Assembly: GCA_937924775.1 (NCBI GenBank)
Contig: CALDUT010000010.1
Span: 310,001 to 374,000 of the forward strand
Length of the DNA stretch: 64,000 bases
Origin: an uncultured Gemmata sp.
GTDB taxonomy: Bacteria; Planctomycetota; Planctomycetia; Gemmatales; Gemmataceae
Direction of reading: 5' to 3'
This document shows positions 1 to 15,593 of the stretch, one piece after another (positions within the stretch are counted from its first letter, which is position 1; every line of letters begins with the position of its first letter). A program made the translations under genes and the position numbers. Under the pieces are notes generated by a model. The model did not search any database. It worked only from the letters and a program-made list of their open reading frames with translations, and was not told the DNA's origin.

Positions 1-41
1 GGTGTGGCGATGGTTTTGCGTGCGGGAGCTTCAGGAAGCAT
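1..41 (-). CDS. Possible start of a further gene of the Mo/W operon (partial)
   Basis: An ATG at 41 (reading leftward) opens a frame that stays open for 13 codons to the window edge. A GGAG Shine-Dalgarno-like sequence sits 7 nt upstream of it, inside the end of the MosB-like gene, and the start would overlap that gene by 11 nt, in line with the overlapping junctions of the rest of the operon. The peptide is too short to recognise. If real it could be a second storage-protein subunit, but that is only an inference from the two-subunit architecture of known molybdenum storage protein. Confidence 0.4.
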   Translation of the reverse strand, partial: MLPEAPARKTIAT

Positions 42-894
42 TGGCTAACTCCGTCGATGAGGAAGGCGCGGTGATCACCGTACCCACTGGCTCGCCCGCT
101 AAAGCGCGGCGGAGCAGTTCGGGCTTCAGACCATTGATAATCTGAATCCGGCGGGTGTTGCGGGCATGAATCATACTTTCAAGAACCGCCCGATCGATAA
201 TCAGCTCGGGGAAATTCCCCTCCAACACTTCCTGGGCGGTGATGGAAGGGATGAAGCGGGCTTGCCGATGGCGTTTGGGATCTGCGGAGTAAAGCCCGTC
301 CTCATCTTTGACAAAAATCATGGACGCAGCCCCCAACACTTCACTAACCATAAACAAGCCGAAGTCTTCCCGATAATGAGGGATGCGTCGCGAACCGGTG
401 GGGGGTTCCCAATAGTGATAGGGGGGCATACCGCTGAGAATGGGAATCATGCCCGAGGCCAACCACAGCGGCAGAACCACATAGTGATCTTTGTGGAGTA
501 CCACCCCGCCATGCTTGGCCAAAAGCGCCTGAACCATGTAACGGTTCTGCTCATTGACGGCACCCGCGACCATGGCCAGCCCACCTGTTGGAATGCCCAA
601 ATCCAACGCGATGTGGTAAGTGTGTCGCATCCGAGCCCCACCGCCGACACCTACGAGAATTTTGTACTTCTGCCGGCAGCGCACAATTTCCTCCAATAAT
701 GGTACCAAGGCCGCTTTCCCACGGTCGAGGATACTGGCTCCGCCGATGTGAATCACATGAACATCAGGAAGTATGGGGAGGACCTGTTGCTGGTCGGTTG
801 CAGTCAAAACCCGACGATCCATCAACGATTCCCGCATCAGCGGACTGCGGATGTGAGTGCGGCGACCATCGGCTTCTTGAAAGATTTCGTTCAT
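31..894 (-). CDS. mosB: Molybdenum/tungsten storage protein subunit, MosB-like (amino acid kinase fold)
   Basis: The 287-residue product belongs to the amino acid kinase superfamily and resembles the beta subunit of Azotobacter molybdenum storage protein much more than UMP kinase. Visible matches are an IGG..DRG nucleotide-binding strand near residue 50, an SGMPPY..W segment near 155, FVKDEDGLYSADP near 195 and a C-terminal INGL...L..ALAGE.VGT block. The known protein is an ATP-dependent cage that packs polyoxomolybdate or polyoxotungstate clusters in the cytoplasm. I chose the ATG at 894 because it overlaps the upstream stop by 4 nt (ATGA) and matches the family's length of about 270. It follows a tungstate importer, so the stored oxyanion may be tungstate. 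No nitrogenase gene is visible. Confidence 0.83.
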   Translation of the reverse strand: MNEIFQEADGRRTHIRSPLMRESLMDRRVLTATDQQQVLPILPDVHVIHIGGASILDRGKAALVPLLEEIVRCRQKYKILVGVGGGARMRHTYHIALDLGIPTGGLAMVAGAVNEQNRYMVQALLAKHGGVVLHKDHYVVLPLWLASGMIPILSGMPPYHYWEPPTGSRRIPHYREDFGLFMVSEVLGAASMIFVKDEDGLYSADPKRHRQARFIPSITAQEVLEGNFPELIIDRAVLESMIHARNTRRIQIINGLKPELLRRALAGEPVGTVITAPSSSTELANAS

Positions 895-2168
895 GGATTC
901 TCCTTGACGGGGCCGAGCAGAATCGGTTCGGTCGTTGTGGGTGTCAGGGCATGGTCCCATTCCTTCGCTTCCGGCAGTCGATCGGTGGGAAATGCCCGCA
1001 AGACCGCAACCGTCACGAAGCCACTCAGGAAACCCGCCACCAGCGTGGGAAAGAGTTTCACACCCCACAGCATATAGACTTCAACGCGTGTACCCAGGAG
1101 TAGTAACACGAGCAATTCTGCCGCCAGTCGGGCCAGGCCGGCCAACAACCCCACTCCACAGTAAACCCAGGCTCGCAGGGGGAGCCGGCGTACCAGCGGC
1201 ATGACGAGGTCGATCAGCAAACCCGGGGCGAGGTGTTTGAGAACTTCAAAAATGCCGAACCGACCATCGCCTTGCAACAAGGCGACCACACCCATCACGG
1301 CCCCGGCGGTGGTACCGCCCCATCGGGTGTAGGTCAGACGAGCTGCCAGCAAATACAGGGGAAACAGCAACAGTGTTTTGTGCCCGCTGGCAATGGGCAC
1401 TCCCGGCAGCAGCTTCAGCATTTTGAAACCAATCATCATCAACCCGATACCGGCAATCACCGCGACGTCGTTGGCCAAACGCGGGTCCAGTGGTTCGGGC
1501 TCATCGGTTTCGAGCTGCAGACGGGCCTCGTCGAGGGCATTTCGTATGGCCACGGTGAAGAAGGCCACATCTCCGCAGATCAGCCGTCGCAATACGGTCA
1601 GAAATCCGGGGGAATGCGCATTTCCCGGTTGGCGGCGAAGCCCCCCGCTGGTGGGCGATTCCAGGCCGCTGAGTTTTGCCAAAATCAGGTTCAGCGGATA
1701 AACGAACAGCTTGGGCAGGCCGAGCGTGCGTAAACCGACTACCAAATCCGTCCGTGGACCGGTCAGACGCACAACCGCGGCAGCCAAAAGTATCGTCAGA
1801 ATCTGCAGACTCAGGAACGCCGCGAGGGCAGCACCGCCCAAGTTGATCCACACCAAGCGACCGAATATCGTCACCGCGTGCCAATCTGCTGCGATCCGTT
1901 CCTCGTCTCCAGGCACAAAAGCGTAGACAGCGAAGAGAATCGCGAATAACCATTTCAGGCGGGTGAGTGGTCGAAGCAGCCTGCGACCGGTCACACCCCC
2001 AACCAAAAGCAAGACCACCTGGAGGATAAACAGCCCGCCGACCCACCACGCGACGCGTGATGTCTCGACGGCGGCCATGGCCAACACTGCGATCGTGACC
2101 GCGATGAGGTAAAGAACCTTCATCACGGCGATGAGCTTCCGGCGATCGCAGCGGAGGTGCTGATCCAT
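891..2168 (-). CDS. Polytopic membrane protein, possibly ECF-transporter-like
   Basis: The 425-residue product has roughly eight to ten hydrophobic segments, in two clusters separated by a soluble stretch around residues 170-225. The N-terminal half ends in a GLRTLGLPK...YPLNL stretch reminiscent of the coupling region of EcfT/CbiQ subunits. The C-terminal half has a Gly-rich GGTTAGAVMGVVALLQGDG segment and an APGLLIDLV segment reminiscent of ECF substrate-binding components. The start is taken at the ATG overlapping the tupA stop (TGATG), and the end overlaps the storage-protein start by 4 nt. It is therefore translationally coupled between a tungstate importer and an oxyanion storage protein, and a role in moving or handling molybdate/tungstate is the obvious inference. 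The family assignment is tentative. Confidence 0.5.
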   Translation of the reverse strand: MDQHLRCDRRKLIAVMKVLYLIAVTIAVLAMAAVETSRVAWWVGGLFILQVVLLLVGGVTGRRLLRPLTRLKWLFAILFAVYAFVPGDEERIAADWHAVTIFGRLVWINLGGAALAAFLSLQILTILLAAAVVRLTGPRTDLVVGLRTLGLPKLFVYPLNLILAKLSGLESPTSGGLRRQPGNAHSPGFLTVLRRLICGDVAFFTVAIRNALDEARLQLETDEPEPLDPRLANDVAVIAGIGLMMIGFKMLKLLPGVPIASGHKTLLLFPLYLLAARLTYTRWGGTTAGAVMGVVALLQGDGRFGIFEVLKHLAPGLLIDLVMPLVRRLPLRAWVYCGVGLLAGLARLAAELLVLLLLGTRVEVYMLWGVKLFPTLVAGFLSGFVTVAVLRAFPTDRLPEAKEWDHALTPTTTEPILLGPVKENP

Positions 2169-3001
2169 CAATGCCCATTCCTCAGCGGCCAACGACTAGC
2201 TCGAAACAACGGTTCTCCATACTTGGCACGACCATATTCCGCGATGATTTGTTGGGCTTCGCTGGAGAAGAGATAGGTAATGAATTCCATTGCCCAAACA
2301 TCCTTCACATGCGGATGCTGTTGGGGGTTAACCGCAATCACGGAATAGCGGTTGATCCAGTCCGGATCACCGGAATAAAGAACCGCGAGATTTAACCCAG
2401 TCCGTTGAGCGATGAAGGTTCCGCGATCGGCCAACGCATATCCGCCTTTCTCATCGGCCATCCGCAGAACAGCTCCCATCCCTTGACCGGTGCGAATGTA
2501 CCACGGTCCGGCGGGTTCAATCCCCGCGGCCAACCATGTAGCCTTTTCCTTTTGGTGAGTTCCCGATTCATCCGCGCGGGAAATAAACAGTGCCTGCGTT
2601 TGCCAAATGCGGCTGAAGGCGTCGGCTCCGGACGTGGCCTCGTGGACCTTGGCCGGATCATTTGTCGGGCCAACCAATACGAAGTCGTTGGTCATCAATT
2701 CATTCCGAGACGTTCCCTGATGTTCGTCGAGGAAGCGCTGTTCGGCCACTGGATCATGTGTCAGCAAGACATCAGCATCGCCGCGACGGCCAATCTCCAA
2801 AGCCTGACCTGTACCCACCGCCACCACACGAACCTCGATACCCGTTTTAGCTCGGAACCGGGGTAAAAGTTCGTCGAGCAGACCGGTATCGCGGGTGCTG
2901 GTAGTCGTGGCCAGCGTGATGCATTTTTCGGGAGCATTGATACAACCGCTCATAACAACAATAACAATGCCACAAAACCAGATTGACCATCGGCAGTACA
3001 T
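2168..3001 (-). CDS. tupA: Tungstate ABC transporter, substrate-binding lipoprotein TupA
   Basis: The 277-residue product starts with a hydrophobic signal ending in a lipobox (VMSGC, Cys20), so it should be membrane-anchored on the outer face of the cytoplasmic membrane. The mature N-terminus carries TTTSTRDTGLLD, the hallmark oxyanion-binding strand of TupA-type proteins. Further family features are GTGQALE.GRRGDADVLL near residue 65, and SRADESGTHQKEK near 140. The ATG at 3001 lies one base past the tupC stop and gives a proper lipoprotein signal. An in-frame start further upstream would bury that signal. TupA binds tungstate selectively over molybdate in characterised systems, but the residues that set selectivity cannot be judged here, so the ligand could be either. 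Confidence 0.9.
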   Translation of the reverse strand: MYCRWSIWFCGIVIVVMSGCINAPEKCITLATTTSTRDTGLLDELLPRFRAKTGIEVRVVAVGTGQALEIGRRGDADVLLTHDPVAEQRFLDEHQGTSRNELMTNDFVLVGPTNDPAKVHEATSGADAFSRIWQTQALFISRADESGTHQKEKATWLAAGIEPAGPWYIRTGQGMGAVLRMADEKGGYALADRGTFIAQRTGLNLAVLYSGDPDWINRYSVIAVNPQQHPHVKDVWAMEFITYLFSSEAQQIIAEYGRAKYGEPLFRASRWPLRNGH

Positions 3002-3002
3002 A

Positions 3003-3731
3003 TCAGTACACCATCTTGCCTTGGATGAATGCGGCCGTTCGAGTGTCACGCGGCATTTCAAAGAAATCGGTCGCCGGGGCCGTTTCAATCAATTGCCCGT
3101 CGAGCAACAAAGCGACACGCTCGCCAGCGCGGCGGGCTTGGAAGTGGTTGTGTGTGGCCCAAACCACGGTCGTACCCCGTTGTTTGTGGTCTGTCAGAAC
3201 GACGTCTTCGACCAGGGCCACGCGTGCTGGATCCAGGTTATTCGTCGGTTCATCAAGCAACAAGACCTCGGGCGCGAAGGCCAAGGCCCGGGCTAGCGCG
3301 ACCAGTTGGGCCTCGCCCCCGGAAATAGCGCTGGCCGATCGATCAGCGAGGTGAGTCAGATGAACCTGCTCCAGGATCGCTCGAGCCTTTTGACGGCAGG
3401 CGGCCTCCCCACGAATACGCAATCCATATTCAACGTTTGAACGCACTGTGCCTGCCAGCAGCATCGGGCGTTGAAAAACCAAGGTGATCGTGCGTTTGAC
3501 CGCCAGGGGAGTCTTGTGATTAAACGGTTTGCCCTGAAACCATAACTGGCCCCGAGTCGGCCGTTGTAAACCCGCCAGCAACCGCAACAGCGTACTTTTG
3601 CCCGACCCGGGAGGCCCCACCAAACACAGGATCTCACCAGTGGAGACCTCAAAACGGGGCAAACGAAGGACCTCGCGCAAGCCGTGTTGGACCGTGACAT
3701 TCTCCAACCGGTAGGCGCAAGGCCCGTTCAT
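3003..3731 (-). CDS. tupC: Tungstate ABC transporter ATPase TupC
   Basis: A 242-residue ABC ATPase that should energise TupB. Visible motifs in order are Walker A GPPGSGKST near residue 40, Q-loop LVFQRPML near 85, signature ISGGEAQ near 135 (a variant of LSGGQ), Walker B LLLDEP near 158, and the H-loop WATHN near 190. The start is placed at the ATG at 3731, which overlaps the tupB stop by 4 nt (ATGA); a longer frame begins at 3794 but would run 67 nt into tupB. It ends one base before the tupA start. It lacks the C-terminal MOP domain found in ModC, which fits a tungstate-type rather than a classical molybdate transporter. Confidence 0.88.
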   Translation of the reverse strand: MNGPCAYRLENVTVQHGLREVLRLPRFEVSTGEILCLVGPPGSGKSTLLRLLAGLQRPTRGQLWFQGKPFNHKTPLAVKRTITLVFQRPMLLAGTVRSNVEYGLRIRGEAACRQKARAILEQVHLTHLADRSASAISGGEAQLVALARALAFAPEVLLLDEPTNNLDPARVALVEDVVLTDHKQRGTTVVWATHNHFQARRAGERVALLLDGQLIETAPATDFFEMPRDTRTAAFIQGKMVY

Positions 3732-4378
3732 AGCGACCTCCCGTGCAAACGCATGGCCGCCAGGTTCACACTGAGAGCCAGAGCCATCAACCACCCTCCT
3801 AAGGCCAGTGCGAGAGCAAAATTCCCCTTGCCAGTCTCCATCATGATCGCGGTCGACAAAACGCGCGTGTGGCCTTGAATATTCCCGCCCACCATGTAGG
3901 CTGCGCCCACCTCGCTAACGATGCGGCCAAAGGCCACCAACAGTGCAAATAACACCCCGACGCGGGCTTCACGCAACACGGCCCAACGGACCTGCCATGG
4001 TGTCGCGCCGAGGCTGCGAATTTGCCAGACCAAATCCGCCGGTACAGCGGCCACCGCCCCCATCACCAAGCCAGTGATCAAGGGCAGCGCCATCAGTGTT
4101 TGGGCCAAAATCATGGCAGTGGGGGTAAAGAGCCACTCCAAAAATGCCAAAGGACCGCTGCGGGATAACAGCATGTAAACCAAAAGGCCCACAACCACCG
4201 GGGGGATACTCATCCCCGTGTAGACGAGGGCGACCAAAGGCCGCTTGCCCGGGAAACGAGCTAAACCAAGCCAAACACCGACAGGAATCCCTACAACTGA
4301 CGCGATCACCAGCGCCGTCGCCGTGACACGCAGCGTCAGTGTGACGATCGGCCACATTTCCGAATCTAAGACGCTCAA
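3728..4378 (-). CDS. tupB: Tungstate ABC transporter permease TupB
   Basis: The 216-residue product has about five to six transmembrane segments and the ABC permease EAA-type loop in the region LRSLGATPWQ...REARVGVL around residues 125-150. The segment GMSIPPVVVGLLVYMLLSRSGP near residues 55-75 is typical of the TupB/ModB branch. It lies 6 nt downstream of the CsoR-like regulator's stop and overlaps tupC by 4 nt, so the genes are almost certainly one transcript. It should form the homodimeric channel of the importer in the cytoplasmic membrane. A molybdate or sulfate permease of the same superfamily is the alternative; the neighbouring TupA motif favours tungstate. Confidence 0.87.
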   Translation of the reverse strand: MSVLDSEMWPIVTLTLRVTATALVIASVVGIPVGVWLGLARFPGKRPLVALVYTGMSIPPVVVGLLVYMLLSRSGPLAFLEWLFTPTAMILAQTLMALPLITGLVMGAVAAVPADLVWQIRSLGATPWQVRWAVLREARVGVLFALLVAFGRIVSEVGAAYMVGGNIQGHTRVLSTAIMMETGKGNFALALALGGWLMALALSVNLAAMRLHGRSL

Positions 4379-4992: not shown

Positions 4993-6306
4993 ATGAGTTT
5001 TACAACGCAGGATGCGCGGACCGTTAGTTCACAGTTAACAACGGATGTAGCGATTGTGGGCGGAGGCCCCGTGGGTTGTGTGGCCGCGCTGGCCTTCGCG
5101 CAGCGGGGAGCCCGCGTCTATGTAATCGATGCCGGTTCAGCCCCGACACGCTTGGCTGGGGAATGGCTCCATCCCACCGGGGTGAGTGTGCTGACACAGC
5201 TAGGCGTGGATTTGACGAAACTCGGAATACCGCACTCGCGCGGTCGGGGATTTGCAATCTTTCCCCACACAGGTTCGCCTATCGTACTCTCCTATGTTGG
5301 TGGTGAATGGGGCATCGGCTGCCAACATCATGTGCTGGTTGAAGCGTTGCAGAAACAACTTGCTCGAATCTCGAATATTCGACTGATTCGGGGTTATCGG
5401 GTTGTGGATGTTCGGCCGGAAGTCGTGGTGGCTACCTGTCCTCAGCGGTCGCGGACAATCGAACTTCATAGTAGGTTGGTGGTCGGTGCGGATGGCCGGC
5501 AGTCGATTGTTCGGCAGAAGCTGGGTTACTCCAGCAGCCGCCAGCCGGTGTCGTACATGGCAGGTTTTCCGGTCCCCGCCGGCGTTTTGCCTTATCTCGA
5601 CCACGGGAATGTTTTCCTCGGCGGGCCGGGGCCGGTCCTCGCGTTTCGCATCAGCGATTCGCTAGCGCGAGTGTGTTTCGATGTTCCGGCCAATCGCGTT
5701 GCGTGGATTCGTCAGCCGCGAGAACTTATCGGGGCCTACCGCTCGGTCCTTCCTGAAGCGGTGATTGAGGCTTGCCTGAAAGTCTCAGAAAACGATGTCC
5801 CCGCGGTGGCCGCCAATCAACTGTTGCGGCGACGCTATTACGGACGAGCCGGTATGGCCCTGATCGGCGATGCTGTGGGTCATTGCCATCCACTGTGCGC
5901 TGTCGGCATGTCGGTTGGTTTTCTTGATGCCGTTGCCCTGGCGGAGTCGGCCACCGTGGAAGAATTCGCCGCGAAGCGTTCGTCCGTGGGCCGGGTCCCC
6001 GAATTATTATCCATGGGTCTGTACGACTTGTTTGTCAGCCCTGATCCGGGTAGTGTTGAACTCCGCGCGGCCGTTTATCAATTGTGGCGTACCTCGGCAG
6101 CGGCCCGACGCGACACTATGCGGCTACTCGCTGTGCGGGAAACTCGGCGTGCGGCTCTAGCGATTACCTTTGCGCGCTTGGCATCTGTTGCATCGCGGCA
6201 AATCGTTAGCGGGTTATTGAACCGCTCGCTGGGTCATTCGCTGGCGGCTGTTTGTGGTTTGGGACGCTGGGGCGGGTGGTTGGCCCGCGAAATGATCGTT
6301 TCTTAA
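4993..6306 (+). CDS. sqmo: FAD-dependent squalene monooxygenase (squalene epoxidase)
   Basis: This 437-residue flavoprotein should epoxidise squalene to 2,3-oxidosqualene at the membrane. It has an N-terminal Rossmann FAD motif (IVGGGPVG, residues 21-28), a central VVGADGRQSIVR motif near residue 165 and a C-terminal LIGDA...HPL...GMSV segment near residues 290-309. The HPL and GMSV elements are characteristic of squalene epoxidases rather than generic aromatic hydroxylases. The length fits bacterial homologues. The gene lies 38 nt upstream of a sterol-methyltransferase-like gene and shares a transcript with oxidosqualene cyclase, which settles the pathway. A geranylgeranyl-reductase-type enzyme is the main alternative from sequence alone. 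Gemmata is known to carry an adjacent squalene epoxidase/cyclase pair. Confidence 0.86.
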   Translation: MSFTTQDARTVSSQLTTDVAIVGGGPVGCVAALAFAQRGARVYVIDAGSAPTRLAGEWLHPTGVSVLTQLGVDLTKLGIPHSRGRGFAIFPHTGSPIVLSYVGGEWGIGCQHHVLVEALQKQLARISNIRLIRGYRVVDVRPEVVVATCPQRSRTIELHSRLVVGADGRQSIVRQKLGYSSSRQPVSYMAGFPVPAGVLPYLDHGNVFLGGPGPVLAFRISDSLARVCFDVPANRVAWIRQPRELIGAYRSVLPEAVIEACLKVSENDVPAVAANQLLRRRYYGRAGMALIGDAVGHCHPLCAVGMSVGFLDAVALAESATVEEFAAKRSSVGRVPELLSMGLYDLFVSPDPGSVELRAAVYQLWRTSAAARRDTMRLLAVRETRRAALAITFARLASVASRQIVSGLLNRSLGHSLAAVCGLGRWGGWLAREMIVS

Positions 6307-6344
6307 TAGCTTCTGTTACCTCTTCATTGACTCTGAATCGATCC

Positions 6345-7223
6345 ATGCCCACCTCCGAATATCAAAAACTCGCTCAAGACGCTGATGTTCGTAAGGAAAA
6401 CTATATTGATCTGGTTCGTCAATATTATGATCTAGTGACACCCATATACTTGGAGAAATGGGGTGTCTCTTTTCACTTCGCGATTTTCCGGGGCGAAGAA
6501 TCCTTGGAAGAGGCTATGATAGCGACCGAGCAATGGTTGGCGGACTTTGCCGGTCTGCGCACGGGTATGAAGGTATTAGATGTCGGTTGTGGTGTTGGTG
6601 GCCCTGCATTGACGATCGCCCGCTACAGTGGCGCTCATATCACGGGAATCAACATCGTTGAACCACACATTCACATTGCTCGGGATCGAGCGCTTAAAGC
6701 GGGACTGGCCGACCGCACAGAATTCCTCGTGGCTGATGCAATGGCCATGCCTTTTCCGGATGGTACGTTCGATGCCGTCTACGTTATCGAAGCGGGCTGC
6801 CATATGCCGGATAAGCCTCGTTTCTATCAGGAATGCGCCCGAGCCTTGAAAACGGGTGGTGTTTTTATCGGCACGGATTGGTTCCGGAGTAATTCTCTCA
6901 CCTCGCAAGACGCGGCTGACTATATTGAACCTATCTGCCGGCTTCATGGAATCCCCAGTCTCATTTCCTTGGCTGAACTCCGTCGCTATCTCAGCGCGGC
7001 AGGGTTTTCGATTCATACAGTGGATAACCTCGCGACATATGGAAACGTATTGAAAAATTGGGAAAACATAGATCGCAAATCTTTACGCTTGCTCAATACT
7101 TATATGCGGTTTGTTATACCCAAGGTGGAGCAAATGATGCTCGAAGGTGGGTTGAAGCTGATTGATGCAGCCCGCCGGGGAGTCTTTCTTCTTGGTATTT
7201 GGAAGGCGGTTCGCCAAACGTGA
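6345..7223 (+). CDS. Sterol C-24 methyltransferase-like SAM enzyme
   Basis: The 292-residue product carries the signature regions of Erg6/SMT-type methyltransferases. These are YYDLVTPIYLEKWG...FHFA.F.GEE near residues 25-55, the SAM-binding LDVGCGVGGPAL near 79, ITGIN near 98, and a VIEAGCHMP element near 148 corresponding to YAIEATCHAP of sterol methyltransferases. The ATG at 6345 follows the epoxidase after 38 nt, and the stop overlaps the GTG of the cyclase (GTGA). It probably transfers a methyl group to squalene or to a sterol side chain. The gamma-tocopherol and triterpene methyltransferase branches have the same motifs, so the exact substrate is open. The placement between the epoxidase and cyclase genes is unlike the two-gene arrangement I recall from Gemmata. 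Confidence 0.8.
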   Translation: MPTSEYQKLAQDADVRKENYIDLVRQYYDLVTPIYLEKWGVSFHFAIFRGEESLEEAMIATEQWLADFAGLRTGMKVLDVGCGVGGPALTIARYSGAHITGINIVEPHIHIARDRALKAGLADRTEFLVADAMAMPFPDGTFDAVYVIEAGCHMPDKPRFYQECARALKTGGVFIGTDWFRSNSLTSQDAADYIEPICRLHGIPSLISLAELRRYLSAAGFSIHTVDNLATYGNVLKNWENIDRKSLRLLNTYMRFVIPKVEQMMLEGGLKLIDAARRGVFLLGIWKAVRQT

Positions 7224-9178
7224 CTGCGACAATTTCTCCAACCGTATCGAATCCGGCCATTGACGAACTGTTGGCCCGCCAGCAACTCGGGGGATATTGG
7301 GAAGGGGAAATGGCGTGGTGCCCTGTGGTCACAGCCCAGGTAGTCACCACGCGGCACGTTGTGGGTCATAGTTTTTCTCCCTCGGAACAAAAACGGTTGA
7401 TTGTGTATTTTCAGCGAACTCAAACGGCAGACGGTTCCTTCGGCTTACATGCTGAACATCGTGGCTCAGTGTTTGTGACGTCGCTGGTGTATGTGGCGGC
7501 TCGGCTGTTGGGTGTGGCCGCCGATCATCCCTTGGCTGTTTCCGCACGACGGTGGCTTCATGCCCATGGCGGTGTTCGCGCCATTCCGACGTGGGGAAAG
7601 TTCTGGCTTGCCCTTCTTGGTCTTTATGGTTGGGAAGGGGTTCGTCCGTTGATGCCAGAGTTGGTATTATTGCCGCGATGGTGGCCGTTGCATCCCTTGC
7701 GTTTCTATTGCCATACCCGCTACATTTACCTGGCTATGGCGGTATTGCAGGGCCACCGTGTTCAGTTCAATCTTGGCTCCTTGGCACACGACCTGCGAAT
7801 TGAACTGTATGGGCCGCAGGGTATGCCATCCTCCTTCCGCTGTTACCGCTATCAATTGGCTCACGAAGACCGGCTGGAAAGTCCGGGAGTGCTCCTCCGG
7901 TTGGCAGAACACCTGCTGAGTGCTTACGAGTGCATCGCGAGCCGATCGGTGCGCCAACGGGCCACTCGTCGGTGTCTGGAATTCATCATGCGTGAGCTTC
8001 AAACCAACAATTATCGTTCGCTTTCTCCTGTCAATAACACCCTCAATGCTTTGATTTTCCATTGGCAGAAACGACCGGCAGAAACGGCTCGTTGCATTGC
8101 CGGGTGCGAGTACTACCGGTTCGATGACGATCCATATGGCCTCCGCTACGCGGGTGGTTCAACGACGGTGTGGGACACTGCGTTTGCCGTTGAGGCGCTG
8201 CTGGCAGACCCCAGCACGGCAAGAGAGTATGAACGAACGGTCCTGCGTGCCTATGCGTTTCTCGCAGCCAATCAAATGACACAATCCTTACACGGCCGCG
8301 ACCCCTGTTGGCCGGATGAGGCCTGCGGTGGCTGGTGCTTGGGCACGGCAGAGCATGCGTGGCCCGTTAGTGACTGTACCGCTGAGGCCTTAGCGGCCGT
8401 GTTGGGCGTCCACAGGATTTTTGAGGTACCCGATCCAATCTCTTCGACGCGCTTAGCTCAGGCGGTGGACTTCATCCTTTCGCGGCAAAATGCTGATGGC
8501 GGTTTTGGTTCCTATGAACGGGCCCGCGCCCCCCGGTGGATCGAACGCCTCAACCCATCGGAAATGTTCACGCAGTGTATGACGGATCAATCCTACATCG
8601 AATGCACTGGCTCGTGTCTGGTGGCGTTGAGCCGCTATCGTGAGGCGTTCCCCCACACTTGCCCGCAACGCATCCAACACGCCATCGATCGCGGCGTGCG
8701 GTTCTTACTGAATCGGCAGCGATCCGATGGGGCCTTTCCGGGAGCATGGGGTATTTACTTCACCTATGGTACCTTTCATGCAGTTCGCGGATTGCGGGCT
8801 GCCGGGGTACCCAGAGAACATCCCAAATTGCAGGCCGCGGCCAAGTGGTTGATCCGCCATCAACGGACAGATGGGGGTTGGGGAGAACACTTCACCTCCT
8901 GCCTGCGGGGCGAATATGTGGAAAACCCGCAATCGCTTCCGGCGATGACCAGTTGGGCCATCATTGCACTAACGGAGATTGTGGGAGGCCAGCACCCCGC
9001 TGTACGTCGCGGTGTCAACTGGTTATATGTACATAATAATTCTGCGCGATCTTTTGAATTTGTCAACGGTGTTTTTTTTGGTTCGGCGATGCTTCGCTAC
9101 GAACTGTATCCGGTGTACTTTCCGGTGTGGGCCATGAAGCGGGTAGCACAAGATGCCGCAGCGCTGCCCATTTTTTGA
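7220..9178 (+). CDS. osc: Oxidosqualene cyclase (lanosterol/parkeol-type synthase)
   Basis: The 652-residue product is a terpenoid cyclase of the oxidosqualene branch. The protonating motif is VSDCTAE (Asp385), which marks oxidosqualene cyclases, whereas squalene-hopene cyclases use DXDD. Several QW-type repeats are visible, including QNADGGFGSYE, QRSDGAFPGAWG and QRTDGGWGEHF in the C-terminal half. It should cyclise 2,3-oxidosqualene to lanosterol or parkeol. The start is taken as the GTG at 7220, which overlaps the methyltransferase stop by 4 nt; a TTG at 7199 in the same frame is possible. It closes the sterol operon. Squalene synthesis genes are not in the window. Length and motifs look complete. 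Confidence 0.92.
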   Translation: MTATISPTVSNPAIDELLARQQLGGYWEGEMAWCPVVTAQVVTTRHVVGHSFSPSEQKRLIVYFQRTQTADGSFGLHAEHRGSVFVTSLVYVAARLLGVAADHPLAVSARRWLHAHGGVRAIPTWGKFWLALLGLYGWEGVRPLMPELVLLPRWWPLHPLRFYCHTRYIYLAMAVLQGHRVQFNLGSLAHDLRIELYGPQGMPSSFRCYRYQLAHEDRLESPGVLLRLAEHLLSAYECIASRSVRQRATRRCLEFIMRELQTNNYRSLSPVNNTLNALIFHWQKRPAETARCIAGCEYYRFDDDPYGLRYAGGSTTVWDTAFAVEALLADPSTAREYERTVLRAYAFLAANQMTQSLHGRDPCWPDEACGGWCLGTAEHAWPVSDCTAEALAAVLGVHRIFEVPDPISSTRLAQAVDFILSRQNADGGFGSYERARAPRWIERLNPSEMFTQCMTDQSYIECTGSCLVALSRYREAFPHTCPQRIQHAIDRGVRFLLNRQRSDGAFPGAWGIYFTYGTFHAVRGLRAAGVPREHPKLQAAAKWLIRHQRTDGGWGEHFTSCLRGEYVENPQSLPAMTSWAIIALTEIVGGQHPAVRRGVNWLYVHNNSARSFEFVNGVFFGSAMLRYELYPVYFPVWAMKRVAQDAAALPIF

Positions 9179-9231: not shown

Positions 9232-9549
9232 AATAAAGGCAGACTTGCTCAACGGAGTGTGTTGAGCGAGATAATCCCCGATCCCGGTAGTTCCGTGGTC
9301 GGCTGATAAAACGGATAGTGACCCGCAAAAACCCATAAACCGGTTCGCCCGTCGCATCTCGGACCCCGCGCCGCGGGGCTTGACACCGACGACCGCTGCT
9401 CCCCCGCAGCGCTAGCCGATTTCATGTGGAGTAGGGACTTCGTAATTGACCTCGCCGCCCCGAGCCGCGATGGCCAGCGTTAGCCAACCGCGGTAACGAT
9501 TCGTCCACTCTGCCGAGCTCCGACGGGCTACCGTGAGGAGTAGCCCTTC
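9232..9549. other. Intergenic region upstream of rny with several stem-loops
   Basis: No gene is visible. Three further compact inverted repeats occur: CTTGCTCAAC/GTTGAGCGAG (9244-9253 and 9261-9270, one mismatch), CCCCGCG/CGCGGGG (9364-9378) and CGCTGC/GCAGCG (9394-9411). They could form a structured 5' leader of the RNase Y mRNA, whose own transcript is often autoregulated in other bacteria, or end upstream transcripts. A GAGGAG ribosome-binding site precedes rny. Confidence 0.4.
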
Positions 9550-11151
9550 ATGGACCCGCTTTATGCCGGCGGGCTTGCCCTTGTTGCTGCCCTCTTAGCC
9601 ATGGGCGGCACCTATTTGGTAGTTCGGCGTTCCGGCCTAGCCACGCACTCGACCCGCGACAGGGCTTCCGAATATGAAGCTACACGTCGTGCGGAACTTC
9701 AAGGCCAAGAATTGCTAGAACAGTACCGTCGCCAGGCCGAGCAACTACTGCGTGACGCTGAACTGCAAGCCCGCGATGAAATTTTTCGCCGTCGCGAAGA
9801 ATTCAACCGCGAAATCGACGCGGCCCGCGCGGAATTACGCGAACAGGAACGCCGCCTCGAAAAACGCGAAGACACCCTCGAACACAAATACAAGGAACTG
9901 GCCCGCAAAGAAAAGCATCTGGAAAGCCTCAAGGAAAAGATCATTGATCGCAAGGAAGCACTTGAGAAAAAAAACAAGCACCTCGAGGAACTCATCCAGC
10001 AGGAAATGACGAAATTGTACGAGATCACCGGATTGTCCCGCGAAGCAGCCAAGCAGATGTTATTGGAGCGGCTACAACGCGAACTTTCGGAAGAAGTGGC
10101 GGCCAAGATTCGTCAGCACGAAGAACGGCTCAAGCAACAGGCCGAAGTGAAAGCCCGCGAAATCGTCACCACCGCCATTCAGCGGTACGCTGCCGACCAA
10201 ACCGCCAGCGTGACCGTCAGCACCGTCGATATCCCCTCCGACGACATGAAAGGCCGCATCATTGGCCGGGAAGGGCGAAATATTCGCACCTTCGAAAAAC
10301 TCACTGGCGTCGATGTGATCGTGGATGATACGCCAGGGGTGGTGGTGGTCTCGGCTTTCGACAATGTCCGCCGCGAAACCGCTCGCCTAGCCCTCACCAA
10401 ACTGATTCAAGATGGCCGCATTCACCCCAGCCGCATTGAGGAAGTGGTGAGTGAAACGCAAGCGGAGATGGAAAAATACATCATAGAATTGGGCAACCAA
10501 GCTGTCTTAGAGGCCAACGTCCCATTGGTGAATGAAAAGCTCATTTATCTCCTGGGTCGGTTGCGCTTTCGCACAAGTTACAGCCAGAACGTTCTGGCTC
10601 ACTCGGTCGAAGTGGCCCACTTGTGTGGCTTGATGGCGGGAGAATTGGGTTTGAATCCCGTGTTGGCCCGGCGGTGCGGTTTGCTTCACGACCTGGGCAA
10701 AGCTGCGGATCACGAAATGGAGGGCGGGCATCCCAAGGTGGGAGCCGAACTGGCCCGACGCTATGGGGAAACCAGCAAAGAGGTACTGCACGCCATCGCT
10801 GGGCACCACGATGATGTTTCGGTTGACAATATTTACACCGTCTTGGTCGCGGCGGCCGACGCGATCAGTGCCAGCCGGCCGGGGGCTCGGCGAGAAACGC
10901 TCGAGAAATACGTCAAACGGTTGACCGATCTGGAGGCCGTGGCCTGTGGTTTTCCCGAAGTGGAACAGGCGTATGCCATTCAAGCGGGCCGAGAGTTACG
11001 CGTCATTGCCAATGCCCAACGCACAACCGATGCCGACGCGGTACGCATCTGCCGGGACATTGCCCGGGCCATCGAACAGCAGCTCGATTATCCTGGAGAG
11101 ATCAAAGTGACTGTGATTCGCGAAAGCCGGGCCACGGAAATCGCGAAGTGA
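9550..11151 (+). CDS. rny: Ribonuclease Y
   Basis: The 533-residue endoribonuclease initiates mRNA turnover at the membrane. It has one N-terminal transmembrane helix (about residues 5-25), a long charged coiled coil (about 35-200), and a KH RNA-binding domain with [12 protein letters not shown] near residue 235. A metal-dependent HD domain follows, with HSVEVAH near 350 and LLHDLGKA near 378. Length matches the usual 510-530 residues. The ATG is preceded by GAGGAG at 9 nt. It stands alone, after the sterol operon and convergent with the small genes to the right. Nothing unusual is visible in the catalytic motifs. Confidence 0.97.
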
Positions 11152-12011: not shown

Positions 12012-13121
12012 TCAACTTAAGCCTTCTTGCGTTTCGCGAACCAACTGTTCGACGACCGCTCGGGTACTCCTGGTATGGGCGAAGGTTTTCAATTGGCGGT
12101 CGGCGCTGGAACCGGTTTCGAGGACCTTGTAAGCGTATTCGATTTCGGACCGTGTTCCCAGTTCGTCGATTACGTCGCGGAGGAACCAATCGATCATTTC
12201 GTGAATCAACTCCCGCACCGGGACTTCTTTTTCTTTGCCCAAGTCGAGCAGATGGCCATCCAACCCATAACGCACGGCCCGCCATTTATTTTCCTCGATC
12301 AACTCGGTGGGGTAAATACGGAAGGTCATATTATCGCGGCGGAGTTTCCAAAGTTTGGCGATGATCGCTTGGAAAATTGCGGCGATACAAATCGCTTCGT
12401 CGACCTTGGTGCAGACATCACAGATGCGGAATTCCAGCGTGGGATAGCGGTGATTGGGGCGGACATCGTACCAAATCTTGGAGCCATCCGGAATACAGTT
12501 GGTTTTGACCATGGTTTTCACCATGCCTTCATATTCCACCCAATCGGTAAACAGCGGCGGGATGCCCGAGCGAGGGAAATGGCGGAAGATGATGGACCGG
12601 TAACTTTTCAGACCGGTGTTGCGCCCCATCCAAAAGGGTGACGAGGTGGACAAACACAACACATGTGGGGCGAAGTAGCGGGCGACGTTCATCGCGTCGA
12701 TGAGAAAGTCGCGGTCTTCAATCCCGATGTGGACATGCGTTCCAAAGATGAGAAGCTGCCGAGCCAGGTCTTGCATGTCATTTTGCACGCCCAAATAGCG
12801 TTCAAAGGGTGTGATTTCTTGCTGTTCCCAATTGGAAAAAGGGTGTGTCCCCGCGGCCGCAATGACCAAACCGTGACGATGGGCCAGATCGGTGATGCTG
12901 CGGCGGAGTTTCACCAATTCCCGGCGGGCATCCGCGGGTGTTTGGCAAATTTCCGTTCCCACCTCCACCATCGACTGATGCAGTTCGGCTTTGATTTGCT
13001 CTTTGAGTATAAGTTTGCCCTCATCGAGAATTTGCGTGATGTAGGAACGCAATTCCCCGGTCGTTGGATCGATGATTTGGTACTCTTCCTCAATACCGAG
13101 GGTCAACGAAGGGGCTTGCAT
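12012..13121 (-). CDS. YbdK-type carboxylate-amine ligase (glutamate-cysteine ligase family 2)
   Basis: The 369-residue product is a GCS2 enzyme, which joins the gamma-carboxylate of glutamate or a similar acid to an amine using ATP. Family landmarks are LGIEEEYQI.D at the N-terminus (residues 8-18), EVGTEICQTP near 52-61, GTHVHIGI near 125-133, and RPNHRYPTLEFRICD near 222-236. Length is typical (about 370). In E. coli YbdK has weak glutamate-cysteine ligase activity and the true substrate is usually unknown. It is the last of four co-oriented genes (esterase, RimK-like ATP-grasp, permuted ATP-grasp, YbdK) with gaps of about 100 nt, which suggests a dedicated peptide or amide product rather than bulk glutathione. 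Confidence 0.88.
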   Translation of the reverse strand: MQAPSLTLGIEEEYQIIDPTTGELRSYITQILDEGKLILKEQIKAELHQSMVEVGTEICQTPADARRELVKLRRSITDLAHRHGLVIAAAGTHPFSNWEQQEITPFERYLGVQNDMQDLARQLLIFGTHVHIGIEDRDFLIDAMNVARYFAPHVLCLSTSSPFWMGRNTGLKSYRSIIFRHFPRSGIPPLFTDWVEYEGMVKTMVKTNCIPDGSKIWYDVRPNHRYPTLEFRICDVCTKVDEAICIAAIFQAIIAKLWKLRRDNMTFRIYPTELIEENKWRAVRYGLDGHLLDLGKEKEVPVRELIHEMIDWFLRDVIDELGTRSEIEYAYKVLETGSSADRQLKTFAHTRSTRAVVEQLVRETQEGLS

Positions 13122-13218
13122 ACCGATCGCTCCGAAGGGATTGACCGCTGTAGTGCGGGATATGAGCGTTGATTGTGTTGTAACCGATGTTCGGCCGTTT
13201 GAAAACGGGGGGAAGTGA

Positions 13219-14571
13219 TTATCGTGGTTCGATGATGAAAGTGGGGAGCGTGGAGCCCCCCCCGGCAGTGACGTTAACGAGAGCTTCTGTTGAAATCCGC
13301 GTCAGGCATCCGTGCATAAAAGCGCCCAAAGCTACATACAGGCTGGTGTCCAAAATGCGCTCGCGGATGTGCAAGCTTCCGTTTTCCCAGCCGGGAAACG
13401 GTTCGGCGGGCACCCGCACCCGTTGTTGGACGACATAGGGCTTGGTGAGGGCGGTTTCGATCGCCTCATCCCAACGGGCTTGATCCACCATCCAGCCCAA
13501 CACGATGCCCTTGCCACCGTATTCGTCGTTGGGTTTGAGAACGAGCTGATCCTTATTGCGAGACACCCACGGCACAAGGTCGATTTCCTGACCCTGGAAG
13601 AGGGTTTTGCGAGATTCCATGACCCGGGTCCATGGAATATGGCGGGCGATCGCCTGCTGTTGCGCGGGGGTGAAAAGTGCCGCGTTGCGTTCATCGGAGA
13701 GAACAGCCAAAGAGGCTTTCTTGAAGAGAATTTTGCAGCGGAAGGAATTGACCATGCACACAGCTCGGTCGCGCACAGCACGCACCACCGGATGTTCCAA
13801 TCCGCCGCGTTCGATCAATTCCCCGATTAAAACACGTTTGTAGATGAGAGTGATGGGATAATCCCCGGCCCACAGTTGGCCATCGCGATATTCCACATCC
13901 CGGGGGTCCACGATCCTCGCTTCAATCCCCATCTGCTTGAAATAATCGTAAAAAAGAACAAATTCACTGAAAGTCGGCACTTCCCGCCAATCCAAAATCG
14001 CGATCCGGGGCGGCACCGAGGAATGCCCCTGCCACTGTTTGAAAGAATCCAGTAACGCGTGAAGAATGCCCGGCTTGGCGGGAATTGGCCACACCCGATA
14101 CCGGCGTTGGAATTCTTGGAACACCGGCAAGCCATAAAAGAGTTCAGCCAGGGCATCCGAATAGGCTGCCCCGGCGGGAGTCTCCGAGTTATACTCGGTC
14201 AATAAAAGCTCCTCGTCGGATGCAAAAAAGCTGTCGAAGCGGCTGGTCGGGCTGGGTTCAGTGTATCCCGGCTCCACGGTCAAAAGTTCATGTTCCCAAT
14301 CGGCGAGGCGAAACTGCGAGCGAAAGCCCACATCCGCGACCGCGCGGTGGTAAATGGTTTGAAATGCAGGCAGAAGGACTTGGACGGTATCGTGTAACAG
14401 GCGGTACTGCGCAAACGTTAAAAAACGGGGGCGCAGCGCCGTGCAGACCAAGCGTGTGCCAAAAACCAGCCCACGGAGTTGTTGGGATTGTTCGAGGGTC
14501 GCGTGAGAATCGGCGGCCAGTGTCGAATGGGCAGTGAGTAACTCGTGATATACCGCAATGGCATCGGTCAT
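13219..14571 (-). CDS. Circularly permuted/glutathionylspermidine-synthase-like ATP-grasp ligase
   Basis: The 450-residue product has the layout of ATP-grasp enzymes of the circularly permuted or glutathionylspermidine synthase-like group. An N-terminal helical region is followed by LTEYNSETPAGA near residue 125, a Rossmann-like segment AILDWREVPTFSEF near 190 and a YKRVL motif near 250. The nucleotide-binding KPNDEYGGKG loop comes near 343. Such enzymes form amide bonds through acyl-phosphate intermediates. It lies between a RimK-like ATP-grasp and a YbdK-type ligase, so three different amide-forming enzymes are encoded side by side. The substrate cannot be read from sequence. Confidence 0.75.
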   Translation of the reverse strand: MTDAIAVYHELLTAHSTLAADSHATLEQSQQLRGLVFGTRLVCTALRPRFLTFAQYRLLHDTVQVLLPAFQTIYHRAVADVGFRSQFRLADWEHELLTVEPGYTEPSPTSRFDSFFASDEELLLTEYNSETPAGAAYSDALAELFYGLPVFQEFQRRYRVWPIPAKPGILHALLDSFKQWQGHSSVPPRIAILDWREVPTFSEFVLFYDYFKQMGIEARIVDPRDVEYRDGQLWAGDYPITLIYKRVLIGELIERGGLEHPVVRAVRDRAVCMVNSFRCKILFKKASLAVLSDERNAALFTPAQQQAIARHIPWTRVMESRKTLFQGQEIDLVPWVSRNKDQLVLKPNDEYGGKGIVLGWMVDQARWDEAIETALTKPYVVQQRVRVPAEPFPGWENGSLHIRERILDTSLYVALGAFMHGCLTRISTEALVNVTAGGGSTLPTFIIEPR

Positions 14572-14675
14572 CGGGTTATTCCCCGGCGGTTAGGTTCAAT
14601 CGCTTGTGAGTTCTGTGTTGCGGCTTCCTGGAAGTCCCGGTGTGGCCAATCGCGGCAACGGTCGCTCACCGGTTG

Positions 14676-15593
14676 TCAAAATAACTTCGACCAGCGCAAT
14701 TCGGCCAATGGGGGTTGAGGATTCAGGGCACGCTCGATCACGAGGTTGGCCATTTTTTGAACAACCCAATCGAAATACTTCGGTGTCAACGAGTTGATAT
14801 CCATGTCCGGGGCCGGGTTCATGAAGTCGATCGCGTACGGTAGGCCGTCTTTGATGGCCCACTCCACGGTATTCATTTCGTAACCCAAGGCGTGCACGAG
14901 TTTTAATGAGTCGTGAACAACGCGGTCACGGAGTTCCGCGGACAGATACTGGTCGTCGGGGATATAACGGCGGTTCTCGGTGTCGTAGGGCATCGGCAGG
15001 ATGTCGCGGCCGCCAATACACATGACACGAACGTATTGATCCCACTGGATCCGCTCTTGGGCGATCATCGTTAGTAAGCCGGAACTATCGTAATAGCGGA
15101 TCAACTCCTCAATGGAATGGCAGACGTAAACCCCCCGCCAACCACCGCCGTGGGCGTCTTTGAGGATGCACGGTAGCCCCACATAATCGACAATCGCTTG
15201 CCAATTCAACGGATACTCCAAATTCCGGAGGCTTTCGCTTGGCACAATCCCCGGGACGTAATCTTTGTTGGGCAAAGCGACGGTTTTTGGATGGGCCAAG
15301 CCCAACTTCGAGCAGAGCGAAGCCCCAAAGAATTTGTCGTCGGCTGACCACATGAACGGGTTATTGATGACCGTCACCCCTTCGAGAACGGCGTGTTTGA
15401 GATAGGTGCGGTAGTACGGGACTTCGTGGGATATCCGGTCCACAATCACCGCGTAGGGGATGTGTTCATCCATCCGAGTACCGCCCAGCTTGGCGTACTC
15501 CGCCACCACCCCGTGGTGGCGCCGATTGACTTCCTCAAGAAACCGCGGTGGAAACGACCATTCGCGACCCACAATCACGCCGACCCGTTTCAC
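14676..15593 (-). CDS. RimK-like ATP-grasp ligase
   Basis: The 305-residue product has an ATP-grasp fold: a pre-ATP-grasp domain starting VGVIVGREWSFP, a PFMWSADDKF element near residue 78, the nucleotide-binding LKDAHGGGWRGV loop near 143-154, and a metal-binding AIDFMNPAPD segment near 262. The start is a GTG at 15593 with GAGGTG 5 nt upstream. It should activate a carboxylate as acyl phosphate and attach an amine. In the cluster it precedes a second, dissimilar ATP-grasp gene by 104 nt. A canonical RimK or GshB role is unlikely because the loop sequence and context differ; the substrate is unknown. Confidence 0.75.
   Translation of the reverse strand: MKRVGVIVGREWSFPPRFLEEVNRRHHGVVAEYAKLGGTRMDEHIPYAVIVDRISHEVPYYRTYLKHAVLEGVTVINNPFMWSADDKFFGASLCSKLGLAHPKTVALPNKDYVPGIVPSESLRNLEYPLNWQAIVDYVGLPCILKDAHGGGWRGVYVCHSIEELIRYYDSSGLLTMIAQERIQWDQYVRVMCIGGRDILPMPYDTENRRYIPDDQYLSAELRDRVVHDSLKLVHALGYEMNTVEWAIKDGLPYAIDFMNPAPDMDINSLTPKYFDWVVQKMANLVIERALNPQPPLAELRWSKLF

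Follow-up and report, generated by a model that had tools for sequence, protein, structure and literature searches.

Sterol synthesis in planctomycetes of the genus Gemmata is known as a minimal pathway encoded by adjacent genes for squalene monooxygenase (SQMO) and 2,3-oxidosqualene cyclase (OSC). Gemmata obscuriglobus makes lanosterol and parkeol (PMC6606645, PMC8172173)—only these two according to PMC6606645—and Gemmata is described in PMC8172173 as not metabolising them further. Sterol methyltransferases (SMTs, e.g., Erg6) are also known from bacteria, and those of uncultured bacteria weaken side-chain methylated steranes, which serve as eukaryote markers, in this role (Brown et al. 2023, PMC10070321). 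The main text of that study mentions neither planctomycetes nor Gemmata, and no planctomycete SMT is named in the titles and abstract openings listed by searches of open-licence papers for sterol methylation in planctomycetes or other bacteria. Here, we describe a locus of an uncultured Gemmata sp. (64,000 nucleotides of contig CALDUT010000010.1, hereafter the window) in which the gene for an SMT-like, S-adenosylmethionine (SAM)-dependent methyltransferase (MT) lies between those for SQMO and OSC. Judged from sequence, this bacterium probably makes methylated sterols, and we hold with somewhat better than even confidence that its short sterol pathway has gained one step in which MT would methylate the protosterol at C-24, giving a C31 sterol.

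Like the minimal Gemmata operon, the window has SQMO and OSC as adjacent partners, but here the MT gene stands in between and overlaps the OSC gene by 4 nt. SQMO (4993..6306, 437 aa), MT (6345..7223, 292 aa, ATG start) and OSC (7220..9178, 652 aa, GTG start) are all encoded on the plus strand, with a gap of 38 nt between the SQMO stop and the MT start and with the MT stop and OSC start sharing the tetranucleotide GTGA (7220..7223), read directly from the sequence. Both the position of MT between squalene epoxidase and cyclase and the 4-nt overlap had been pointed out in an earlier note on this DNA, and both hold. The SQMO-MT-OSC order is kept in a sister species (metagenome-assembled genome [MAG] "Gemmata sp. 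SKYG68", G012; locus L061) at protein identities of 76/84/80% and with the same GTGA overlap. Between the two species, the ratios of nonsynonymous to synonymous substitution rates (dN/dS) are 0.12, 0.06 and 0.08 for SQMO, MT and OSC at dS values of 1.3–1.7 that are near saturation, MT having the lowest ratio of the three. Given the conserved gene order and the low dN/dS, the arrangement is not due to chance. The three genes form one apparent operon, with co-transcription inferred from the layout; a promoter and terminator scan of the locus was uninformative, its signals being about equal to those of shuffled sequences. An alternative MT start at TTG 6252 was rejected because the longer frame would overlap the epoxidase gene, and the alignments of the three other family members begin only a few residues from ATG 6345.

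The two flanking enzymes are readily assigned. SQMO matches the Pfam families SE (PF08491; 69.4 bits, cut-off 20.1) and FAD_binding_3 (71.9 bits, cut-off 22), and its top PDB match is squalene monooxygenase 6c6n (E 4e-23). OSC scores 878.8 bits against NCBIfam TIGR03463 (cut-off 851) and aligns across almost its full length to lanosterol synthase 1w6k (E 2.9e-109), keeping the equivalents of D455, C456, C533, H232 and Y503; its catalytic motif DCTAE, with the Asp equivalent to human D455, lies at 8372..8386 (plus strand). At 28 of 29 chosen active-site positions, OSC equals seven Gemmata-type relatives from loci lacking MT, so the substrate offered to MT is probably the lanosterol/parkeol pair. 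The window genome (G000; 4.79 Mb, 97% complete, from a genus in which 18 further species have been sampled) has a single triterpene cyclase match. Cytochrome P450 was not detected in it by a search that found 7 of 14 controls, nor was ERG4/24 by a search that found none of its controls though it did find the homologue of the planctomycete MAG G021 (see below), nor a geranylgeranyl reductase (GGR) of the type encoded there; Rieske oxygenases, ERG2, DHCR24-type and other sterol enzymes lay outside this search.

In the pathway that we propose, SQMO would convert squalene to oxidosqualene, which OSC would cyclise to the Gemmata-type protosterols lanosterol and/or parkeol with their side-chain delta-24 double bond. 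Following the electrophilic carbocation mechanism known from SMT/Erg6, MT would then methylate C-24 of this double bond with SAM as the donor, and the product would be a C31 24-methyl(ene) lanosterol/parkeol. We thus infer a sterol as the substrate of MT, C-24 as the position and, as the most likely product, C-24-methylated lanosterol/parkeol (C31).

The same steps could be arranged differently if MT methylated a linear precursor (squalene or oxidosqualene) and OSC then cyclised the methylated oxidosqualene. SMT-related squalene methyltransferases of Botryococcus act on the linear precursor, the gene order places MT between the two enzymatic steps, and the squalene epoxidase gene adjoins MT in G000 and G012 and is one gene away in G021. 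The short C-terminus of MT could suit a linear substrate, and in Acidipila rosea, in whose genome no OSC was found, the family member has a polyprenyl synthase and a protein with a cyclase domain as neighbours. However, operon order is weak evidence on reaction order, and the near-identity of the OSC active site to that of the seven relatives gives no indication that the enzyme has adapted to a larger substrate. We consider this route unlikely and prefer methylation after cyclisation.

By phylogeny, MT is SMT-like but not an SMT proper. A first tree (64 of the 87 sequences collected) unites the four-member MT family as a clade (support 100/98) whose sister group comprises the SMTs and the acidobacterial SMT-like proteins (92/84), with the SMT clade to the exclusion of MT at 100/100. 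A second tree (43 of the 87 plus a non-database sequence of the gamma-tocopherol methyltransferase VTE4, 44 rows) recovers MT with SMTs at 100/97 and RebM-like proteins next (99/95), with VTE4 further out on a long branch (1.76) at its own fork (88/53) and with actinobacterial RebM/AtmM/MitM-type methyltransferases as a separate clade. The placement of the MT clade as sister of SMT/Erg6 is thus supported, though it depends on the rows chosen as outgroup (i.e., on rooting) and on trees with non-database sequences of SMT1 and Erg6. In profile-profile comparison, the MT family scores 398 against the myxobacterial SMT homologues (so named by likeness to SMT1; 13 of 14 sequences, with L097 left out for an internal stop), 318 against the acidobacterial SMT-like proteins and 285, 278 and 263 against three other methyltransferase groups. 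Window MT itself is 32–36% identical to the myxobacterial homologues over alignments of at least 290 residues (BLASTP); the comparison was made with these homologues and not with the proteins assayed by Brown et al. 2023 (PMC10070321). The Erg6/SMT-like assignment of the earlier note is therefore borne out as far as the sister position and the best profile match go, but it does not extend to an SMT in the strict sense, as MT branches beside, not within, the SMT clade and has no Sterol_MT_C domain (PF08498). Canonical SMT identity was rejected on these two grounds.

In its catalytic half, MT retains part of what characterises SMTs. It is a class I SAM methyltransferase (Pfam Methyltransf_11, 82.6 bits; AlphaFold model with a mean predicted local distance difference test score of 93.6) in which residues 76-92 (KVLDVGCGVGGPALTIA; 6570..6620) hold the SAM-binding motif LDVGCGxGGP with the SMT-type GGP. 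Residues 143-157 (DAVYVIEAGCHMPDK; 6771..6815) are the equivalent of SMT YAIEATCHAPD, and of this IEAxCHxPD motif A150 and C152 are found in 4/4 clade members and 0/14 outgroup rows, while P155 is present in all four but also in 4/14 outgroup rows. According to PMC6997595, which also provides the definition of SMT Region I, C-24 methylation is tied to the aromatics of this region, whose equivalent is formed by residues 35-46 (YLEKWGVSFHFA; 6447..6482, all on the plus strand). This region reads YLEKWG in window MT and YEYGWG in Erg6; its Tyr and Trp are retained in 4/4 members of the MT clade, all of which lack the Glu after the Tyr (see below), and its third position is non-aromatic in window MT, as it is in four of the 12 myxobacterial rows, which have Q, R, I and R there. 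Of 34 SMT-specific columns in the catalytic half, 50% are conserved in the MT family, 69% in acidobacterial SMT-like proteins and 8–15% in three outgroups; as the columns were picked on SMTs, the SMTs' own 97% arises by construction.

Relatives of SMTs can shift their position of attack, and MT might act elsewhere on the sterol by O-methylating the 3-OH or by C-methylating the nucleus. The nematode sterol C4-methyltransferase, set beside MT by description and not by sequence, is described as a sterol-acting SMT homologue with an altered Region I that is devoid of the aromatics (PMC6997595). The closest PDB structures to MT, by sequence and by fold, are AtmM, MitM, RebM and similar small-molecule methyltransferases. 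Yet the nematode enzyme differs in using 3-oxo sterols and methylating C-4, lanosterol is already 4,4-dimethyl, and MT has the Region I Tyr and Trp. Since a PDB search with an SMT query finds no SMT structure at E 1e-20, the structural matches say little; a "RebM-like" identity was rejected as misleading on this account, and the actinobacterial enzymes of this type also branch apart from MT in the second tree. We give little credence to another position on the sterol and retain C-24 as the more probable site.

The gene context of the other clade members largely points to sterols as well. A planctomycete MAG (G021; K_Offshore_120m, VGYC01) encodes in locus L062 an SQMO (5120-6541), a GGR-type flavin adenine dinucleotide (FAD) protein ending at 7812 and MT (7992-8894), followed by a gene for a NAD-dependent epimerase/3-beta-hydroxysteroid dehydrogenase-like protein (9316-10377). 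A different contig (L144) of the same MAG has OSC, ERG4/24 reductase (382 bits), ERG2 isomerase (197 bits), a Rieske oxygenase and a P450. This locus is an independent association of the MT clade with sterol synthesis. G021 has no second match to MT above 61 bits (best of up to 25 candidates scored), compared to 134–173 bits for myxobacterial SMT homologues in BLASTP, and thus no sign of a canonical SMT. As an observation of its own, the sterol gene set of this MAG is apparently complex and far exceeds the two-gene Gemmata pathway. In Acidipila rosea (L063), the genes around MT encode a polyprenyl synthase, a nitroreductase-family protein, a YcaO protein and a protein that combines a C-terminal domain of squalene-cyclase type with an unassigned N-terminus. 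This cluster (L063:3783-10105) possibly encodes a hybrid pathway of terpenoid and ribosomally synthesised and post-translationally modified peptide type. Overall, MT-clade genes are found with isoprenoid enzymes in 4/4 loci and with sterol genes in 3/4.

The Acidipila locus also lends itself to a reading in which the substrate of MT is another isoprenoid (quinone, carotenoid or tocopherol-like) and MT shares the operon without serving the sterol pathway. The Acidipila genome yielded no OSC, the C-terminal third of MT resembles other planctomycete methyltransferase groups (EPICR...LPSMGT), and a low GC content at third codon positions (GC3) suggests later acquisition. This value is 0.51 and 0.52 for MT in the two Gemmata species and lies, in the window, under that of all 29 stop-to-stop frames of at least 350 aa (0.587–0.702; frames, not checked genes); for the MT of G021 it is 0.85 and resembles that of its neighbours (0.77–0.87). 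Together with the dN/dS of 0.06, these values suggest that MT was acquired by the ancestor of the window species and G012 and then came under strong constraint. Against another isoprenoid substrate, the second tree separates MT from the gamma-tocopherol methyltransferase VTE4 and from three other methyltransferase groups, the UbiE model scores only 52.2 bits (cut-off 378), and the sterol context in G021 is independent. The earlier note had regarded a firm grouping with quinone or tocopherol methyltransferases as speaking against its proposal, and no such grouping is seen: MT does not join VTE4, and quinone methyltransferases, which were compared by model score and not placed in the trees, give low scores. 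Tocopherol/quinone methyltransferase identity was rejected on the position of VTE4 and on UbiE/MenG model scores below cut-off. We regard a non-sterol isoprenoid as a rather improbable substrate and continue with a protosterol as the favoured one.

The MT clade is rare, with four members found in this analysis. Among the 13 full-length OSCs (at least 48% identity) in 59 genomes, that of the window included, only the window and G012 have MT between SQMO and OSC; nine of the other 11 loci have SQMO within 1.5 kb and no MT between, and two (L006, L013) have no SQMO within 1.5 kb. Searches with MT scored the best of a set number of candidates per genome. In 95 Gemmataceae genomes (up to 25 candidates), they returned three members (665, 569 and 345 bits; next match 110.5 bits), and all three genomes with MT also have OSC. 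Among 392 sampled Planctomycetota genomes (up to 6), G000 alone exceeded 143 bits; G012 and G021 were not among the matches and presumably not drawn. In 297 genomes from the phylum of Acidipila rosea (up to 8), this species alone exceeded 161 bits. A query with SMT1 across 282 genomes of the phylum to which the Polyangium MAG L079 belongs, assumed to be Myxococcota (up to 7), gave no MT-clade member among the matches listed, where such members would be expected to be visible because all four score 126–158 bits against SMT1 (BLASTP). It did return 14 myxobacterial SMT homologues in 11/282 genomes (46–55% identity to SMT1) and weaker matches in two more. A scan of GTDB contigs, covering close relatives only, gave near-full-length MT matches in L061, L062 and L063 alone (84, 51 and 44%), and a plasmid search returned 26 records (23 from Streptomyces), all below 60% identity and none spanning 80% of the query.

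Separately, SMT-like proteins occur in 12/297 genomes of the Acidipila phylum (L123-L134, L137-L143), where they are 38–43% identical to SMT1, fall into at least two groups and have Sterol_MT_C in 3/3 proteins tested. An OSC above 40% identity was found in only one of these 12 genomes (G953, L159), and the proteins may modify sterols taken from elsewhere.

Several observations weigh against C-24 methylation of a protosterol by MT. The Region I Glu that follows the Tyr (Erg6 E82) is missing in 4/4 clade members and retained in 11/12 myxobacterial rows. In the C-terminal part, the MT family keeps only 13% of 27 SMT-specific columns, close to the outgroups (7–9%) and far from the acidobacterial proteins (79%). 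Sterol_MT_C has no match in window MT even at E 10 (with search filters that drop most matches above 0.1) or, at E 0.1, in the L062 and L063 members, the scanned members being these three and not that of G012, while 3/3 myxobacterial and 3/3 acidobacterial proteins tried as well as the non-database SMT1 and Erg6 sequences were all positive. A profile search of 392 Planctomycetota genomes was uninformative, as it returned no PF08498 match but detected no control either. MT is also shorter (292 aa) than SMTs (330–383 aa). Besides the dependence of the sister relation on rooting noted above, a long-branched single protein (L119) attaches just outside the MT+SMT pair in the first tree. A sterol C-24 reductase of a myxobacterium is reported to be a GGR homologue (PMC12004948), but the GGR of L062 lacks the YxWxFP motif and so may not be a C-24 reductase. 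With no OSC found in the Acidipila rosea genome (best match 27% identical), sterol specificity is not established for the entire clade, and with MT missing from 11/13 OSC loci, the enzyme is dispensable for sterols in general.

The likeness of MT to SMTs lies in the fold, the SAM motif, the IEAxCHxPD motif, the Region I Tyr and Trp, the sister position and the sterol gene context. We put forward a further proposal tentatively, at somewhat less than even confidence. MT may found its own clade of triterpenoid C-methyltransferases, which would have diverged before SMTs gained their C-terminal domain and would make 24-methylated protosterols (C31, lanosterol/parkeol nucleus) in bacteria where sterol synthesis otherwise stops at the cyclase. 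What appears to be new, judged against the main text of Brown et al. and not against the hot-spring sequences of that study, is a sister clade of SMTs that lacks their C-terminal domain, together with its position within the minimal sterol operon of a planctomycete. If our reading is true, planctomycetes would perform side-chain alkylation without demethylation, and a protosterol-methylating planctomycete would be a further bacterial source of side-chain methylated steranes, and an unusual one in that its sterols would gain a methyl group without being demethylated. The MT clade would then show a pre-SMT form of an SMT and, as a sister clade devoid of the C-terminal domain, could serve as an outgroup to root SMT evolution, which bears on a bacterial origin of sterol alkylation.

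Two further gene groups of the window lie on the minus strand. The first (31-4378) comprises a TupA-like binding protein that scores under the TupA cut-off, an ATP-binding cassette (ABC) permease with its ATPase, a weakly CbiQ-like membrane protein and an amino-acid-kinase-family protein, which may resemble molybdenum/tungsten storage proteins. The second (12012-15593) encodes a carboxylate-amine ligase (GCS2; PRK13515 model, 526 bits) that is adjoined by a circularly permuted ATP-grasp-like protein just below the Pfam cut-off and accompanied by a 305-aa protein with no Pfam match.

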